From Actinomycetota bacterium (GTDB lineage Bacteria; Actinomycetota; Actinomycetes; Streptosporangiales; Streptosporangiaceae): a DNA stretch of 64,000 nt. How positions within the stretch are numbered: position 1 is the first letter of the stretch; each line of letters starts with the position of its first letter. The notes under the pieces are model-generated. The model saw nothing but the letters and a program-made list of their open reading frames with translations. It was not told the origin of the DNA and did not search any database. The position numbers and the translations under genes were made by a program. The stretch is from positions 1-64,000 of the forward strand of contig DAHVAN010000356.1 of assembly GCA_027314595.1 (NCBI GenBank), in the 5' to 3' direction. Of the stretch, positions 8,320 through 26,766 are shown one piece after another.

Positions 8320-9282
8320 ATGCCCCCGGTCGTCACCATGAAGCAGCTCCTGGAGAGCGGCGTCCACTTCGGCCATCAGACCAGGCGCTGGAACCCGAAG
8401 ATGAAGCGTTACATCTTCACCGAGCGCAACGGCATCTACATCATCGACCTGCAGCAGTCGCTGGACTACATCGACCGCGCGTATGAGTTCATCAGGGAGA
8501 CGGTCGCGCACGGCGGCACGATCCTGTACGTCGGAACCAAGAAGCAGGCGCAGGAGGCGATCGCCGAGCAGGCCCGCCGGGTCGGCATGCCCTTCGTCAA
8601 CCAGCGCTGGCTGGGCGGGATGCTGACGAACTTCTCCACCGTGTTCAAGCGGCTGCAGCGGCTGAAGGAGCTCGAGGAGATCGACTTCACCGACGTGGCA
8701 GGCTCCGGCATGACCAAGAAGGAGCTGCTGCAGCTCAAGCGCGAGCGCGACAAGCTGGACCGCACCCTCGGCGGTATCCGCGACATGAGCCGGGTGCCGA
8801 GCGCGGTCTGGGTCGTGGACACCAAGAAAGAGCACATCGCGGTCAGCGAGGCGCGCAAGCTGGGCATCCCGGTGGTCGCCATCCTGGACACGAACTGCGA
8901 CCCGGACGAGGTGACCTACCCGATCCCGGGCAACGACGACGCGATCCGCAGCGTGGCGCTGCTGACCCGGGTGGTCGCTGACGCGGTGGCGGACGGCCTG
9001 ATCGGGCGGGCTGGCGCGTCGGACGGCGACCAGAAGCCGTCCGACGACCAGTTCCTGAGCGAGGAGCCGCTGCCCGAGTGGGAGCGTGACCTGCTCGGGG
9101 GCAGCGCCGCCGCAGCGGCCGAAGCCGGGCCAGCGGCCGAAGCCGGGCCAGCGGCCGAGACGACCGAGCCGGCCGCCGCCGAGACCACCGAGCCGGCCGC
9201 CGCCGAGGAGGTCGTCAGCACCACCGCGGCGACCGCCGAGGTGGTGGCGCAGGCCGAAGCCGACGCCGCCGGCGACGAGTGA
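8320..9282 (+). CDS. rpsB: 30S ribosomal protein S2
   Basis: 320 residues. The start [20 protein letters not shown] (after a short lead) and [29 protein letters not shown] and [22 protein letters not shown] are canonical S2 blocks. Residues from about 250 form a long Ala/Glu tail built from short internal repeats: two copies of a block reading AEAGP and two of a block reading TTEPAAAE. This makes the protein longer than most S2 proteins, though such tails are frequent in actinobacteria. Followed 25 bases later by tsf. Confidence 0.97.
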
Positions 9283-9307: not shown

Positions 9308-10144
9308 ATGGCGAATGTCTCCGCCGCTGATGTGAAGCGGCTGCGCGAACAGACCGGCGCGGGAATGATGGACTGCAAGAACGCCCTCGCGCAGGCCGAT
9401 GGCGACTTCGAGGCCGCGATCGAGTTCCTGCGGCTGAAGGGCCTTAAGGACCAGAGCAAGCGTGCGACCCGCACCGCGGGCAACGGGCTTGTGACGGCCG
9501 AACTCGACGGCAGCAGCGCCGGCGTGCTCGTCGAGCTGAACTGCGAGACCGACTTCGTGGCCAAGAACGAGCAGTTCCAGGAGGTGGCCGCCAAGATCGC
9601 GAAGGCGGCCCTGGGCAGCGGCGTGGCCGACCGGCTCGCCCTGCTGACCGTCGAGGTCGAGCCCGGCAAGACCGTCGAGCAGCTCATCGAGGACGCGAGC
9701 TCCTCGATCAAGGAGAAGCTGGAACTCGGCCGCTTCGCCCGCTTCGAGGGCGGTTACGTGACCAGCTACCTGCACCGCTCCGACCGCGACCTGCCGCCGA
9801 CCCTCGGCGTGCTCGTCCAGCTGGACAAGCCGAGCGAGGGGGTCGCCAGGGACCTGGCGCAGCAGGTCGCCGCCATGCGCCCGATGTGGACCACGCGCGA
9901 GGAGGTTCCCGAGGACGTGGTCCAGAAGGAGCGCAGGATCGCCGAGCAGATCACCCGCGACGAGGGCAAGCCCGAGCAGGCGATCCCGAAGATCGTCGAG
10001 GGCCGGCTCGGCGGCTTCTTCAAGGACGTCGTGCTCGTCGAGCAGGCGTTCGTCAAGGACAGCAAGCTGTCCGTGGCCAAGGTGCTCGAGGCCGACGGCG
10101 TGTCCGTGCGGGGATTCGCCCGGTTCCAGGTGGGCCAGGCCTGA
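9308..10144 (+). CDS. tsf: Elongation factor Ts
   Basis: 278 residues, starting MANVSAADVKRLREQTGAGM with the UBA-like N-terminal domain. The Asp-Phe core motif follows in the segment around FVAKNEQFQEVA. It is the guanine-nucleotide exchange factor for EF-Tu. The ATG is preceded by GGAGCGAGG. It lies 25 bases after rpsB and the two are surely cotranscribed. A strong hairpin follows its stop, where pyrH would be expected. Confidence 0.97.
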   Translation: MANVSAADVKRLREQTGAGMMDCKNALAQADGDFEAAIEFLRLKGLKDQSKRATRTAGNGLVTAELDGSSAGVLVELNCETDFVAKNEQFQEVAAKIAKAALGSGVADRLALLTVEVEPGKTVEQLIEDASSSIKEKLELGRFARFEGGYVTSYLHRSDRDLPPTLGVLVQLDKPSEGVARDLAQQVAAMRPMWTTREEVPEDVVQKERRIAEQITRDEGKPEQAIPKIVEGRLGGFFKDVVLVEQAFVKDSKLSVAKVLEADGVSVRGFARFQVGQA

Positions 10145-10149
10145 TCGGG

Positions 10150-10201
10150 GGGCGCCGGAAAGACGCCGATCCGCGGCAGCGGTCAGTGCTTTCCGGCGCC
10201 C
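10150..10201 (+). terminator. Strong hairpin ending the rpsB-tsf transcript
   Basis: GGGCGCCGGAAAG (10150-10162) is perfectly complementary to CTTTCCGGCGCCC (10189-10201), a 13-pair stem with a 26-base internal segment that can itself pair in part. It begins five bases after the tsf stop, so rpsB-tsf probably ends here and frr has its own promoter in 10202-10299. Confidence 0.75.
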
Positions 10202-10299
10202 TTCGTATGAGAATGGGTAGGGCCGGGTAGTGTGGTGACGACCGTACGGGGCCGAGGTCCGAGCCGACCGGCACGCAAGTGCGCACAGGAGCCGTAACG

Positions 10300-10857
10300 A
10301 TGATCGATGACACCCTCCTTGAGGCCGAAGAGAAGATGGACAAAGCCGTCGCGGTCGCCAAGGAAGATTTCGGCAACATCCGCACCGGCCGGGTCCACCC
10401 GGGCATCTTCACCAAGGTGACCGCCGCGTACTACGGCACCCAGACCCCGCTGGACCAGCTCGCCACCTTCCGCGTGCCCGAGCCGAGGATGGTCATCATC
10501 CAGCCGTTCGACAAAGCCTCGCTCGGCACGATCGAGAAGGCCATCAGGAACAGCGACCTCGGCGTGAACCCCTCCAACGACGGCGTGATCATCCGGGTGA
10601 TCTTCCCCGAGCTGACCGAGGAGCGCCGCCGCGAGTACATCAAGACCGCCCGGTCCAAGGCCGAAGACAGCCGCGTCTCCATCAGGAACATCCGGCGCCA
10701 CGCCAAGGACGCGCTGGACAAGATGGTGAAGAACGGCGAGGCGGGCGAGGACGAGGTACGCCGCGCGGAGCGTGACCTCCAGGAACTCACCGACACCTAC
10801 ATCGCGCAGGTCGACGAGCTGCTCAAGCACAAGGAAGCCGAGCTGCTCGAGGTGTGA
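10300..10857 (+). CDS. frr: Ribosome recycling factor
   Basis: 185 residues, the exact usual length. [15 protein letters not shown], the central [13 protein letters not shown] and the C-terminal long helix with [11 protein letters not shown] are canonical. It splits post-termination ribosomes together with EF-G. The ATG at 10300 is chosen over an in-frame GTG at 10279 because it gives the standard N-terminus. Its stop overlaps the GTG start of cdsA (GTGA). pyrH, normally just upstream, is missing. Confidence 0.97.
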
Positions 10858-11738
10858 GCGCCGCAGGCACACAGCCCCAAGACGATATGCCGGACGAGGG
10901 CCGGCAGGCGCCCGGCACGGGGATCAGGGCCGGCCGCAACCTGCCCGCCGCGATCGCCGTTGGCGCCGCGCTCGGCGGCATCGCGCTGCTCACGCTGCTG
11001 ACCGTGAAGGCGACGTTCCTGATCTACATGGGCGCCGCGCTCGCGGTCGCGCTGTATGAGCTCGCCGGCGCGCTGCGCACCCGCGAGATCGCGATCCCGG
11101 TGATCCCGGTCGCCCTCGGCGGCGCCGCGATGGTGACCAGCGCGTACTGGGCCGCGGGCGGCGCCGTCGCCGCCGCGTTCGCGCTGACGGTGCTCGCGAT
11201 CCTCGCCTGGCGCATGTCCGGCGGCACCGATGGCTACGTCAGGGACGTCACCGCGGGCGTGTTCGCGGTCGCCTACCTGGCGCTGCTCGGCTCGACCGTG
11301 TCCGCGATGCTGGCCGCCCACGACGGCGGCCGCCGGGTCCTGGTGTTCGTCATCCTGGCGATCTGCAGCGACATAGGCGGCTACTTCGCCGGAATCACGC
11401 TCGGGCGCTCCGGCGCCCACAAGCTAGCCCCCGTCATCAGCCCGAAGAAAACGTGGGAAGGCCTGGCCGGTTCCGCCGTCGCCACCATCGCGGCCGGCGC
11501 CATCTTGCTGCCCGCGCTGCTGCACGGGTACTGGTGGCAGGGTGTCGTGCTCGGCGCGGCGGCCGTCGTCGCCGCGGTGCTCGGCGATTTCGCCGAGTCG
11601 ATGATGAAGCGGGACCTGAACATCAAGGACATGGGGTCGCTGCTGCCGGGCCACGGCGGCATCCTGGACCGGATCGACTCGCTGCTTTTCTGCGCTCCGG
11701 CCGTCTGGCTGCTGCTGTCGGCCTTCCTGCGCACATAG
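10854..11738 (+). CDS. cdsA: Phosphatidate cytidylyltransferase
   Basis: 294 residues with about eight hydrophobic segments. The C-terminal CDP-alcohol signature reads SPKKTWEG (about residue 199), then [16 protein letters not shown] and [14 protein letters not shown], the full CdsA motif. It makes CDP-diacylglycerol from phosphatidate and CTP for phospholipid synthesis at the membrane. A hydrophilic N-terminal tail of about 30 residues is usual in actinomycetes. The GTG start overlaps the frr stop, so it is translationally coupled. Confidence 0.93.
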
Positions 11739-14489: not shown

Positions 14490-14900
14490 GTGAAGTGGTG
14501 GAAGCGGCTGAAGTTGCGGGCCGGGCGAGCACGGCGGGCGCTGCTATGGCGGGCCGTGCACTGGGGATGGCGGGAGTTCCAGCGGGCCGGCCTGATCACC
14601 GGGGACACGCCGGCGGGGCGGGCCTACCGGGAGTTCGGCCGGGGCTCGGTGATGGCGTTTCCGCCCGGGTCCGTGTTCGGCGAGGGCTGGATCGCGGTCG
14701 GCGAGGACACGCTGATCGCCGCGCAAGTGACCATGTCGGCCGGCATCATGCCCGGTCAGGATCTGGGTCCGGACCCGGTGCTGCGAATCGGCGACCGCTG
14801 CGTGATCGGGCGCGGCAGCCATATCGTCGCGCATGAAAGCGTCGAGATCGGCGATGACGTGTGGACCGGGCCGTACGTGTACATCCCTGAGCATTCGTAG
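14490..14900 (+). pseudogene. Hexapeptide-repeat acyltransferase, 5' part (split by the element)
   Basis: The first 132 codons (to base 14885) encode the N-terminal part of a left-handed-beta-helix acyltransferase, with VLRIGDRCVIGRGSHIVAHE and VEIGDDVWTGPYVYI. The frame then crosses into the inserted element, which adds Pro-Glu-His-Ser and a stop (TAG at 14898). The missing C-terminal part is found 11.6 kb away at 26500-26766. Joined, the two give a continuous 220-residue protein reading PYVYI-TDQNHGYTDP, the normal family sequence. The truncated form lacks the last helix coils and is unlikely to be active. Confidence 0.9.
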
Positions 14901-14915: not shown

Positions 14916-16580
14916 ATGGGTACCGAGCGGCGCGGCAGCGCAGGGCAGACGGGTCTCCGTTGGGGCGGGGACGTGCGCATCTCTGAGGACGAGTGGGTCA
15001 AGGACCCGAAGACGGGCGAGATGCGCCTGTCCGAGAAGGGCATTACCCGGCAGGAAGAGGACATAACCGCACTGGTCGGCCGGCTTGGCGGGGAAGTCGC
15101 CAAGTGGTACCCGGAAAACGACACGTCGGCGTACAAGAAGCGGCGTATCCGGCTTCCGAACGGGCGTAGCGTGTGGCGGGTTTACCGCCCGGAATTCCGG
15201 CGCATGCTCGCCGATTACGAAGACGGGAAGATAGACGGGATCATCTTCTACGACATTGACCGTCTCGCCCGTCAGCCGCGCGACCTGGAAGACCTGATAG
15301 ACCTAGTCGAGTACTACAAGCGTCCCGTTGAAACGGTGACCGGAAATATCGACTTGCGCACATCCAATGGTCGCGCGATGGCGCGCGTGCTGGTGGCGAT
15401 GGCGAACAAGTCTAGCGAGGACACCGCGCGGCGCGTGGCACGCGCCAAGCTCCAAATTGCGCAGGAGGGAAACGGCAGCCGTTTCACGGGAAGCCGCCGG
15501 CGTTTCGGCTACCGGGAAGACGGAACCCTGAATGAGGCGGAAGCGGTGCTTATCCGTGACGCGGCACAAAGGTTCATGGCTGGCGAGTCGTGGAACGGTA
15601 TTGCCAAGCATTTCCGCGCTTCGGGAATCCGGCCGGTCTACGCGAATGTCTGGTCAATGACGTCTATACGTCAGGTTCTTCTGTCTCCCTCTACCGCAGG
15701 TATCGCGGTGTATAATGGTTCGCTGCGCGAGGAAAACAAGACGGGCCGTCCGAAAAACCTCTACTCCGACCCTGAAGCCGTCGCGCTGAAAGACGCGGCT
15801 GGCCGGTACCTGATGGGAAACTGGAAGCCGGTTCTGTCAGTTGACGAGTGGAAAGCACTCGTAGCGGAATCGGAGGCGAGGAGGAAAGGGCAGACATTCA
15901 GTGCCAGGGGAACGCGGAAATACCTATTGACCGGGCTCTTGCGGTGCGGGCGCGTACACGACAACGGCGTTGTATGCAACCGGTCTATGGCCGGCTTCAA
16001 ATACACCAATAAAGCCGGCACGGTTTGTTACGGTTACCGGTGCCCAGACAAGATAAAAGGCGGCTGCGGCGGTCTCCAGCGAAGCATGCCGAAACTCGAC
16101 AAACTCATAGAAGACCTGCTTTTCGCGCACCTCGCGGAAAACGCGCCGGACAGCATGCAGGAAAACGACGGGGCAGGCGAAACCGATGCTGACGCTATCC
16201 AGCTAGCCGAAACACAGGAAAGCATACGCAAGCTCCGGATGGGATATGCGGCGGTTCCCCGGACGGTCAGCGATGACACGATGTTCAGCGTGCTGCCGCA
16301 ACTGGAAGCCACCGAACGCGACCTGAAGGCAAAGCTGCGGAAAAAGGCCAAGGTACGTATGGGCCGGGTTTCCCTTGCAAAGAGGCCGGAAGAAGTACGC
16401 CGCGAATGGGACGAGGCCGATGATAACTTGGTGCGCCGCGCGATTCTTTCCCGCTACCTGAAAGCGGTTATTATCTGCAAGACAGATCGACGTGGTCCGG
16501 GAGCCCTGGATTATGCCGCGATCGAGCCGGTATGGCGCGAAGACGGGGAATACGCGCCACTTGATCACGTGATTTACTAG
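14916..16580 (+). CDS. int: Large serine recombinase (site-specific integrase)
   Basis: 554 residues. The N-terminal resolvase-type catalytic domain has R21 and the likely nucleophile S23 (VRISED), ITRQEED, the Arg-rich DRLARQPRDLEDL and the long E helix around RAMARVLVAMANKSSEDTARRV. The recombinase domain (about 190-300) has RFGYREDGTL and SWNGIAKHF. A zinc-ribbon with Cys at LLRCGR, GVVCN, YRC and GGCGG follows (about 345-385), then a coiled-coil region (about 420-520). The ATG lies only three bases inside the P' arm with no clear ribosome binding site, so expression probably depends on what the junction places upstream. Phage phiC31-type integrases use the same layout. Confidence 0.93.
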   Translation: MGTERRGSAGQTGLRWGGDVRISEDEWVKDPKTGEMRLSEKGITRQEEDITALVGRLGGEVAKWYPENDTSAYKKRRIRLPNGRSVWRVYRPEFRRMLADYEDGKIDGIIFYDIDRLARQPRDLEDLIDLVEYYKRPVETVTGNIDLRTSNGRAMARVLVAMANKSSEDTARRVARAKLQIAQEGNGSRFTGSRRRFGYREDGTLNEAEAVLIRDAAQRFMAGESWNGIAKHFRASGIRPVYANVWSMTSIRQVLLSPSTAGIAVYNGSLREENKTGRPKNLYSDPEAVALKDAAGRYLMGNWKPVLSVDEWKALVAESEARRKGQTFSARGTRKYLLTGLLRCGRVHDNGVVCNRSMAGFKYTNKAGTVCYGYRCPDKIKGGCGGLQRSMPKLDKLIEDLLFAHLAENAPDSMQENDGAGETDADAIQLAETQESIRKLRMGYAAVPRTVSDDTMFSVLPQLEATERDLKAKLRKKAKVRMGRVSLAKRPEEVRREWDEADDNLVRRAILSRYLKAVIICKTDRRGPGALDYAAIEPVWREDGEYAPLDHVIY

Positions 16581-18936: not shown

Positions 18937-19262
18937 GATGCCCCCCGGTGGCCCTGGGAACGCTCCCGGCGGGCCTGCAACTCGTCGCGCAGGTAGTACA
19001 AGGAGTCCGGTTCCCCGTCCGCATGCGCGCCAATGGTGGCGCGCATGGCCGCGAGCAGGTTCGCCCGGTCCAGCCGCGCCGCCTCGAGTTCCGCGCGGGT
19101 CCGCTGTAGTTCCGCGAGCACGGCCGGCACGTCGGCTAGCGCCGAGTCCACGAACCCGAACACGCCCGCCAGCGTGGGCGCGGCGGAGGCGAACCCGGCG
19201 ATGATGTCGCGTGCGATGTCGTTGCGGGTGGTGATCTCGGCATAGCTGTTGCTGGTCATCAT
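18933..19262 (-). CDS. Element protein with coiled-coil, unknown function
   Basis: 109 residues. The start ATG overlaps the methyltransferase stop (ATGA) and the stop overlaps the traB GTG, so both ends are fixed by coupling. Residues about 45-80 (LAELQRTRAELEAARLDRAN) form a likely coiled-coil. No known domain is recognised. Its place just before traB suggests a partner in transfer or a regulator, but this is inference. Confidence 0.75.
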   Translation of the reverse strand: MMTSNSYAEITTRNDIARDIIAGFASAAPTLAGVFGFVDSALADVPAVLAELQRTRAELEAARLDRANLLAAMRATIGAHADGEPDSLYYLRDELQARRERSQGHRGAS

Positions 19263-20224
19263 CGTGCGCCCTCCTGCCTGCCGGCGACGGCCCGGGCGAG
19301 TCGGCCGGCGGCCAGCCGCGCGAAGTCCGGCGAGATGTCGATGCCGGTAAACCGTCGGCCCAGCTGGATCGCGGCCAGTCCTGTCGTGCCGCTGCCCGCG
19401 AACGGGTCAAGGACGGTCCCGCTGGGCTTGCACCCGGCGGCGATGCACCGAAGCGGCAGGTCGATCGGGTAGGCGGCGAAGTGCGGCCCGTTGTAGGGGC
19501 GGGTGGAGATAGACCACACGTCGCCGGGGTTGCGCCCGTTCGGGTGCCCGCGTCCGTCACGGCCTGTCCCGTAGCGGCGGGCCGTGACAACCTCGGGCGT
19601 GCCCGGCCCGTACTTCGGCGGTCGGACAGGTCCCTCAGCGTGCCCCGGCGGACGGGTCCGCCGGGCGCGCCCTGGGCTGTCCGCGTGGGGAACGCGGATG
19701 GGGTCTAGGTTGAACCAGTAGGCGGGCTGCTTGACGAGCAGAAACAGCAGCTCGTGCCGGCATGAAAGCCGGTCGCGCACCGATTCGGGCATCGCGTTGG
19801 GCTTGTGCCACACGATCGCGTTCCGCAGAATCCAGCCGTCCTCTTGCAGTGCGAACGCGACCCGCCACGGGAGGCCGAGCAGGTTCTTCGCGCTCAGCCC
19901 GGCCGCCCGGTGCGTGGTGATGTGCCGGCCCAGGTAGGCGTGCAGCCCGGTGGCCCCGCCGCCGCTGGCCGAGTAGGAGTCGCCGAGGTTGAGCCAGCAC
20001 GTCCCGTCACCGGCGAGCACGCGTCGCGCCTCGCTGAAAACGCCCCGCATCGTTTCCACGTACGCGGCGGGGGTTTCCTCGTGGCCGTACTGTGCGGGGA
20101 TGCCGTAGTCCCGCTTGCCCCAGTAGGGCGGGCTGGTCACGATGCAGTCGGCCGACTCGGCGGGCATCATCGCGAGCACCGCGCGGGCATCGCCAACATG
20201 CAGCGCGAACGGTGCGGCGCTCAC
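19259..20224 (-). CDS. DNA methyltransferase (TSPPYW type, m4C or m6A)
   Basis: 321 residues. Catalytic motif IV is TSPPYW (about residue 30), and the AdoMet-binding motif I DPFAGSGTTG lies near the C-terminus (about 272-281). This order, catalytic motif first, marks a beta-class amino-methyltransferase. TSPPY is most common in N4-cytosine enzymes. The target-recognition region lies between. The GTG start overlaps the previous stop (GTGA). No restriction enzyme gene is adjacent, so it is an orphan enzyme that may protect the element from host restriction after transfer. Confidence 0.9.
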   Translation of the reverse strand: MSAAPFALHVGDARAVLAMMPAESADCIVTSPPYWGKRDYGIPAQYGHEETPAAYVETMRGVFSEARRVLAGDGTCWLNLGDSYSASGGGATGLHAYLGRHITTHRAAGLSAKNLLGLPWRVAFALQEDGWILRNAIVWHKPNAMPESVRDRLSCRHELLFLLVKQPAYWFNLDPIRVPHADSPGRARRTRPPGHAEGPVRPPKYGPGTPEVVTARRYGTGRDGRGHPNGRNPGDVWSISTRPYNGPHFAAYPIDLPLRCIAAGCKPSGTVLDPFAGSGTTGLAAIQLGRRFTGIDISPDFARLAAGRLARAVAGRQEGAR

Positions 20225-26470: not shown

Positions 26471-26525
26471 AGTAGCCTACTTCTACGAATAACTTGCTCA
26501 CCGACCAGAACCACGGGTACACCGA
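26471..26525. other. attR attachment site
   Basis: The right element-chromosome junction. The P arm is 26471-26497, with outer bases AGTAGCCTACTTCTACGAAT. The crossover dinucleotide TC is 26498-26499. The B' half begins at 26500 with acyltransferase codons for Thr-Asp-Gln-Asn-His. Joined with the P' arm at the left end, this gives a 56-bp attP whose halves are both 27 bases. Confidence 0.88.
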
Positions 26526-26766
26526 CCCCGACACGCCGATCGGCCGCCAGCTTCCGGTGAACCGCGCGGTCACGATCGGTGCGGGGTCGTGGCTGGGCGC
26601 CGGGGCGATCGTGCTGCCGGGTTCCCGGATCGGGCGCAACGTGGTGATCGCGGCCGGCTCGGTAGTACGCGGTGAGGTTCCCGACCGGTGCGTCGTCGCC
26701 GGCGTGCCGGCGAAGGTCGTCCGCGAGCACACCGAGGCTGGCTGGTCCCGCCCGGTGATCGTCTGA
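26500..26766 (+). pseudogene. Hexapeptide-repeat acyltransferase, 3' part (split by the element)
   Basis: 88 codons in frame with the 5' part at 14490-14885. TDQNHGYTDPDTPIGRQLP is the substrate-proximal loop of this family, where the His is catalytic. Then come hexapeptide coils IGAGSWLGAGAIVLPGSRIG and NVVIAAGSVVRGEVP and the ending VVAGVPAKVVREH. A TTG at 26494 could start a short product, but it would lack the N-terminal coils. The catalytic His is thus separated from most of the beta-helix. Confidence 0.9.

Follow-up and report, generated by a model that had tools for sequence, protein, structure and literature searches.

Operons linked to translation, rpsB-tsf-pyrH-frr among them, are regarded as almost frozen, and pyrH itself is essential, is a common typing marker and has been studied as a drug target. 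In xenologous displacement, an essential function passes to a homologue of foreign origin, and the native gene disappears. The locus described here very probably records a completed displacement of this kind, in which the operon UMP kinase gene was replaced by a distant relative, PyrH2; it differs from displacement in situ in that the replacement lies at another locus, and two-copy species and a readable fossil of the old gene persist. Two described systems bear on it. One is the solved structure 2JJX, the Bacillus anthracis UMP kinase BA1797 (Meier et al., 2008, as cited in PMC12404492). The other is the frr gene of E. coli, which has its own promoter (Shimizu and Kaji, 1991, as cited in PMC6131387), a precedent for independent frr transcription; since frr can be transcribed alone, it can survive the loss of the gene upstream. 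A literature search, with most subscription journals outside its range, found no earlier report of a pyrH-less tsf-frr operon or of pyrH displacement.

The window, that is, the whole stretch of 64,000 nucleotides analysed (G000:C377:1-64000), comes from a 6.22-Mb MAG of 488 contigs that is 95.9% complete and 6.8% contaminated, and its congeners are catalogued as Trebonia or Streptosporangiaceae MAGs. All of the operon genes lie on the plus strand: an ORF at 8320–9282 that we take to be rpsB (ribosomal protein S2) from synteny with relatives and the established rpsB-tsf operon; tsf (elongation factor Ts; 9308–10144), with orthologues 65–84% identical in the related genomes compared; frr (ribosome recycling factor; 10300–10857), which matches TIGR00496 above the cut-off (212.5 bits) and starts at ATG 10300, with an in-frame GTG also present at 10279; and, 3' of frr, an ORF at 10887–11738 that is presumably cdsA (phosphatidate cytidylyltransferase), as named in the initial annotation and expected from synteny and the established gene order. 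The flanking genes and their order are thus those of the canonical actinomycete operon, but the body of pyrH is deleted and frr stands alone behind a fossil that is still in place. Among the ORFs of the window, none in the 155 bases that separate the end of tsf (10144) from frr (10300) is a pyrH, as the initial annotation had noted. That annotation also called the order very stable, which describes most relatives: 60 were searched, frr was detectable in 57, and pyrH lies immediately 5' of frr in 50 of these. The other seven depart from it (the window genome, G001, G002, G003, G005, G006 and G036). Within the genus, operon pyrH (pyrH1) is absent at this position from five further genomes and present in two, G004 and G007, which are the only exceptions among all same-genus genomes with a readable interval.

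The initial annotation was correct about the length of the interval and its 13-pair hairpin, and missed a remnant of the lost gene at 10220–10299 (plus strand). This fossil of the 3' end of pyrH1 was recognized by alignment to pyrH1 tails, and it matches the tail encoding GPGNVVRAVRGEPIGTLVCAQEP-stop and the spacer that follows up to frr, apart from an insertion of 8 nt and a deletion of 2 nt; the old stop codon, TAA, is at 10295–10297. Against the pyrH1 tail of G004 the window fossil scores 66, compared with 17.3 ± 2.6 for shuffled sequences, and the fossils of G001, G002 and G003 score 63–81; no shuffle (0/500) scored as high in any of these four genomes with either congeneric pyrH1 (G004 or G007) as the query. 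In G005 and G006, just the GGTAATGTGGT and GCACAGGAGC pieces are left (scores 20–26, equalled or exceeded by 1 to 31 of the 500 shuffles). Across an alignment of nine sequences (six from loss genomes, three from intact pyrH genes), GGTA, the TGG that follows it and GCACAGGAGC are invariant. Because a decayed tail aligns at the locus, the operon gene was deleted in place, and the interval is not an assembly gap. With so fragmented a MAG, one might suspect an assembly or binning artefact that removed pyrH from a tsf-frr interval where the organism itself still has it. This explanation has almost no chance of being right: the arrangement recurs in five more assemblies of the genus, each with its own sequence, in G006 it sits inside a 1.89-Mb contig, and an error of assembly would not produce a decayed, indel-bearing pyrH tail. 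The initial annotation had allowed that an independent assembly with an intact pyrH might reveal an assembly deletion; the separate congeneric assemblies lack the gene, and G004 and G007, which hold it, are different species.

It had also reasoned that pyrH must have moved or been replaced, and proposed a search of the whole genome. That search returned a single pyrH above the TIGR02075 cut-off (243.9 bits) in the 95.9%-complete, 488-contig MAG, at G000:C315:25803-26540 on the minus strand. This gene, PyrH2, scores 264.9 bits over positions 1–232 of the 233 in the profile (258.1 bits in another search), and the only other match in the genome (34 bits, partial profile) falls in the range of aspartate-kinase relatives. 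A further pyrH on a piece missing from the assembly is improbable, though the MAG is fragmented, as six genomes agree. The segments KLSGEAL, GGGN-FRG, ADN-G, TTD, VDGVY-DP and VMD, which we take to be the active-site segments of UMP kinases, are all present in PyrH2 (P0001), and in these six the protein aligns gap-free to solved UMP kinases. Judged by its sequence, PyrH2 would be the UMP kinase of the window organism, making UDP from UMP. It is 83–92% identical to the copies in G001, G002, G004, G005, G006 and G007, and its locus is shared genus-wide, with a polA-like PRK14975-type gene, a CBS protein, an inositol-phosphatase-family gene, a GTPase and an EPSP-synthase-like gene; PyrH2 has the polA-like exonuclease/polymerase gene on one side, and on the other several relatives have a MoxR/VWA pair. 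The neighbouring genes are 63–88% identical to those of congeners, which is normal for a species pair, and contig C315 therefore belongs to the organism and is not contamination. Replacement is thus what the search supports, by a homologue of the same family that shares about 45% identity with the operon PyrH of actinobacteria, and neither a non-homologous UMP kinase nor a moved pyrH, both of which had been entertained. If the gene on C315 were the former operon gene, relocated and then rapidly diverged, this would account for a single pyrH lying elsewhere in the genome; such a history is extremely improbable, given that G004 and G007 hold both genes, that PyrH2 is so well conserved within the genus and yet so distant from pyrH1, and that it clusters with accessory enzymes of Firmicutes.

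This clustering was seen in a PyrH tree of 61 sequences (FastTree, LG), in which the PyrH2 clade comprises the Trebonia group, Nonomuraea, Microlunatus, Brachybacterium and others, together with second copies from Paenibacillus and Fictibacillus, Bdellovibrionota sequences and 2JJX from B. anthracis. The clade is apart from all operon PyrH, including the operon PyrH of the same Firmicutes. BA1797, which is presumably the second pyrH copy of B. anthracis, shares the clade but belongs to a different phylum, and its structure (2JJX) is the best solved-structure match of PyrH2 (1.3e-87; 56% identical over 235 ungapped aligned residues). PyrH2 is the only PyrH of the window genome, whereas the Firmicutes checked (Paenibacillus and Fictibacillus) also keep operon pyrH. 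Its distribution is sporadic: PyrH2 was found in 38 of 299 family genomes, 31 of which have a further PyrH match, and in none of 396 other Actinomycetota; most of the 30 carriers reached through loci have two pyrH genes above the cut-off, Nonomuraea has both types, and the neighbours of PyrH2 vary between genera. Horizontal spread fits these observations of a sporadic distribution, differing neighbours and a divergent, foreign clade. The alternative that PyrH2 is an ancient actinobacterial paralogue, distributed by differential loss after duplication with no horizontal transfer, draws on its presence in several actinomycete families and on the fact that actinomycete PyrH2 sequences largely cluster together. 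We regard it as improbable in view of the very sporadic occurrence, the genus-specific neighbourhoods and the nearest non-actinobacterial relatives, which are Firmicutes second copies and Bdellovibrionota.

The two-copy species supply the overlap stage that a displacement by PyrH2 would pass through. G004 and G007, members of the same genus, have pyrH1 in its operon position, flanked by tsf and frr, as well as PyrH2 at its separate locus; they came to light in the comparison of the interval among sister species that the initial annotation had suggested, alongside the five genomes without pyrH. Between them, dN and dS are 0.093 and 0.433 for pyrH1 and 0.074 and 0.376 for PyrH2, close to the 0.090 and 0.426 of frr; both copies therefore look maintained, under purifying selection. 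A sister genus, represented by G009, has pyrH1 only, and PyrH2 was not found in the loss genomes G003 and G036, whose assemblies are 83–84% complete. Three stages are thus visible: pyrH1 only, both genes, and PyrH2 only with a fossil. The native copy is lost, its replacement is of a foreign type, and species with both copies persist.

A single loss of pyrH1 within the Trebonia-like genus is likely but unproven, since topology tests reject neither of two conflicting gene-set trees, one of which (opn) places the two-copy species outside all loss genomes and the other (sup) inside; G004 and G007 cluster together in gene trees. For a species tree, rpoB proved too patchy across the MAGs. In another genus of the family, G036 (contig C538, L079) also has no pyrH between tsf and frr and retains a weaker pyrH-tail fossil (score 30 with the G004 query, 1/500; no significance with either of the two remaining queries). 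Its loss was separate, since it groups with the pyrH1-bearing G024 (97% support); PyrH2 was not found in its 84%-complete assembly.

The hairpin directly 3' of tsf (10146–10205, plus strand) had been read in the initial annotation as a strong terminator that took the place of pyrH and uncoupled frr-cdsA from rpsB-tsf. Its core consists of 13 perfect pairs between GGGCGCCGGAAAG (10150–10162) and CTTTCCGGCGCCC (10189–10201) around a 26-nt loop, the stem can be extended to 17 pairs across 10146–10205, and the folding energy of the interval is −77.2 kcal/mol, compared with −66.0 ± 3.6 for shuffled sequences (z −3.1). The tail after the stem, TATGAGAATGG, contains no U-run (T-run in the DNA); an intrinsic terminator combines a GC-rich stem with a U-tract, and the hairpin is therefore not a canonical Rho-independent terminator. 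Strong hairpins of unrelated sequence occupy the same position after tsf in G001, G002, G003, G005 and G006, and others stand ahead of an intact pyrH in G007, G014, G030, G018 and G033. A new terminator that rewired the regulation of both gene pairs is hence very unlikely, strong as the hairpin is, considering the missing U-tract and the same-place hairpins before intact pyrH in G007 and in other genera. The hairpin probably marks the 3' end of the rpsB-tsf mRNA, a putative terminator role read from its position and fold. Since such hairpins precede intact pyrH, rpsB-tsf was probably separated from pyrH-frr before the loss; what has become uncoupled is frr-cdsA from pyrH. The hairpin is not part of the gene swap, because unrelated hairpins occur there with pyrH1 present.

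Under displacement by PyrH2, a course of events can be proposed whose order, like the horizontal origin of the gene, we infer. The ancestor would have had the order rpsB-tsf-(hairpin)-pyrH1-frr-cdsA and would have gained PyrH2, a further UMP kinase gene, only distantly related to the first and belonging to the BA1797 clade, at another locus. Both enzymes would have been retained for a time, as in present G004 and G007, until the activity supplied by PyrH2 made pyrH1 dispensable. In the lineage of the window genome and its relatives, the operon copy would then have been deleted from just past the tsf hairpin to about the last 25 codons of pyrH1, the deletion stopping where the ribosome-binding site of frr, and perhaps a promoter, begins, and PyrH2 would now make UDP from UMP. 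What remains would be the piece that frr needs: a Shine-Dalgarno sequence in the last pyrH1 codons, and possibly a promoter. The frr Shine-Dalgarno sequence, AGGAG (10287–10291, plus strand), falls in former pyrH1 codons (CAQEP-stop), as follows from the homology of the fossil and from GCACAGGAGC, which is invariant in 9/9 sequences. A candidate −10 element, TAGTGT (TANNNT; 10228–10233, plus strand), also lies inside the fossil; it was chosen for its conservation, which weighs little at a dS of about 0.4–0.7 for most pairs, and a sigma-70 scan found no promoter-like site. A frr promoter at this position is thus speculative and no more than a guess, unlike the internal frr promoter of E. coli.

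The same end state was found in another phylum. In the Bdellovibrionales MAG G344, frr directly follows tsf without pyrH (L218), and another contig (L210) holds its sole UMP kinase gene, which is of the PyrH2 type and 60% identical; this one draft genome would represent a second displacement, reached independently. A bolder reading makes PyrH2 a mobile UMP kinase under different regulation, one that displaces the operon enzyme repeatedly in unrelated lineages (Trebonia-like actinomycetes, the Bdellovibrionales G344 and perhaps G036), and holds that the signals of frr determine what is left of pyrH, whose tail cannot be lost because it contains the Shine-Dalgarno sequence and promoter of frr; we offer this combination tentatively and consider it rather doubtful. 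The displacement itself adds a clear-cut new example to a recognized evolutionary process, and is moderately surprising given which gene and operon it affects: the species of one genus show successive stages in the replacement of pyrH by a distant relative, and the fossil is still where the gene was. The natural series of pyrH1 only, both, and PyrH2 only offers a test of the cost of breaking the operon and of the regulatory difference between the PyrH1 and PyrH2 enzyme types.

Several other genomes appeared to be in the PyrH2-only state and were set aside: G020, G026, G334 (Microlunatus kandeliicorticis) and G348, in which frr is also missing from the assemblies, and G347, in which frr is at a contig edge. 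The PyrH2 proteins of G020 and G026 are 85–86% identical to that of the window genome. In G334 only a PyrH2-type pyrH was found and, with frr missing too, the operon may simply be outside the assembly. An apparent absence in G287 was rejected, as its operon pyrH is present (G287:C1:3670857-3671553) and split in two frames, probably by a sequencing frameshift in this 99%-complete genome. Elsewhere in the window, an acyltransferase gene appears to be split into a 5' part (14490–14900), homologues of which occur in sister genomes, and a 3' part (about 26494–26766); the element between them, of about 11.6 kb, begins with a large serine recombinase (14916–16580) and includes a DNA-methyltransferase-like ORF (19259–20179, minus strand).
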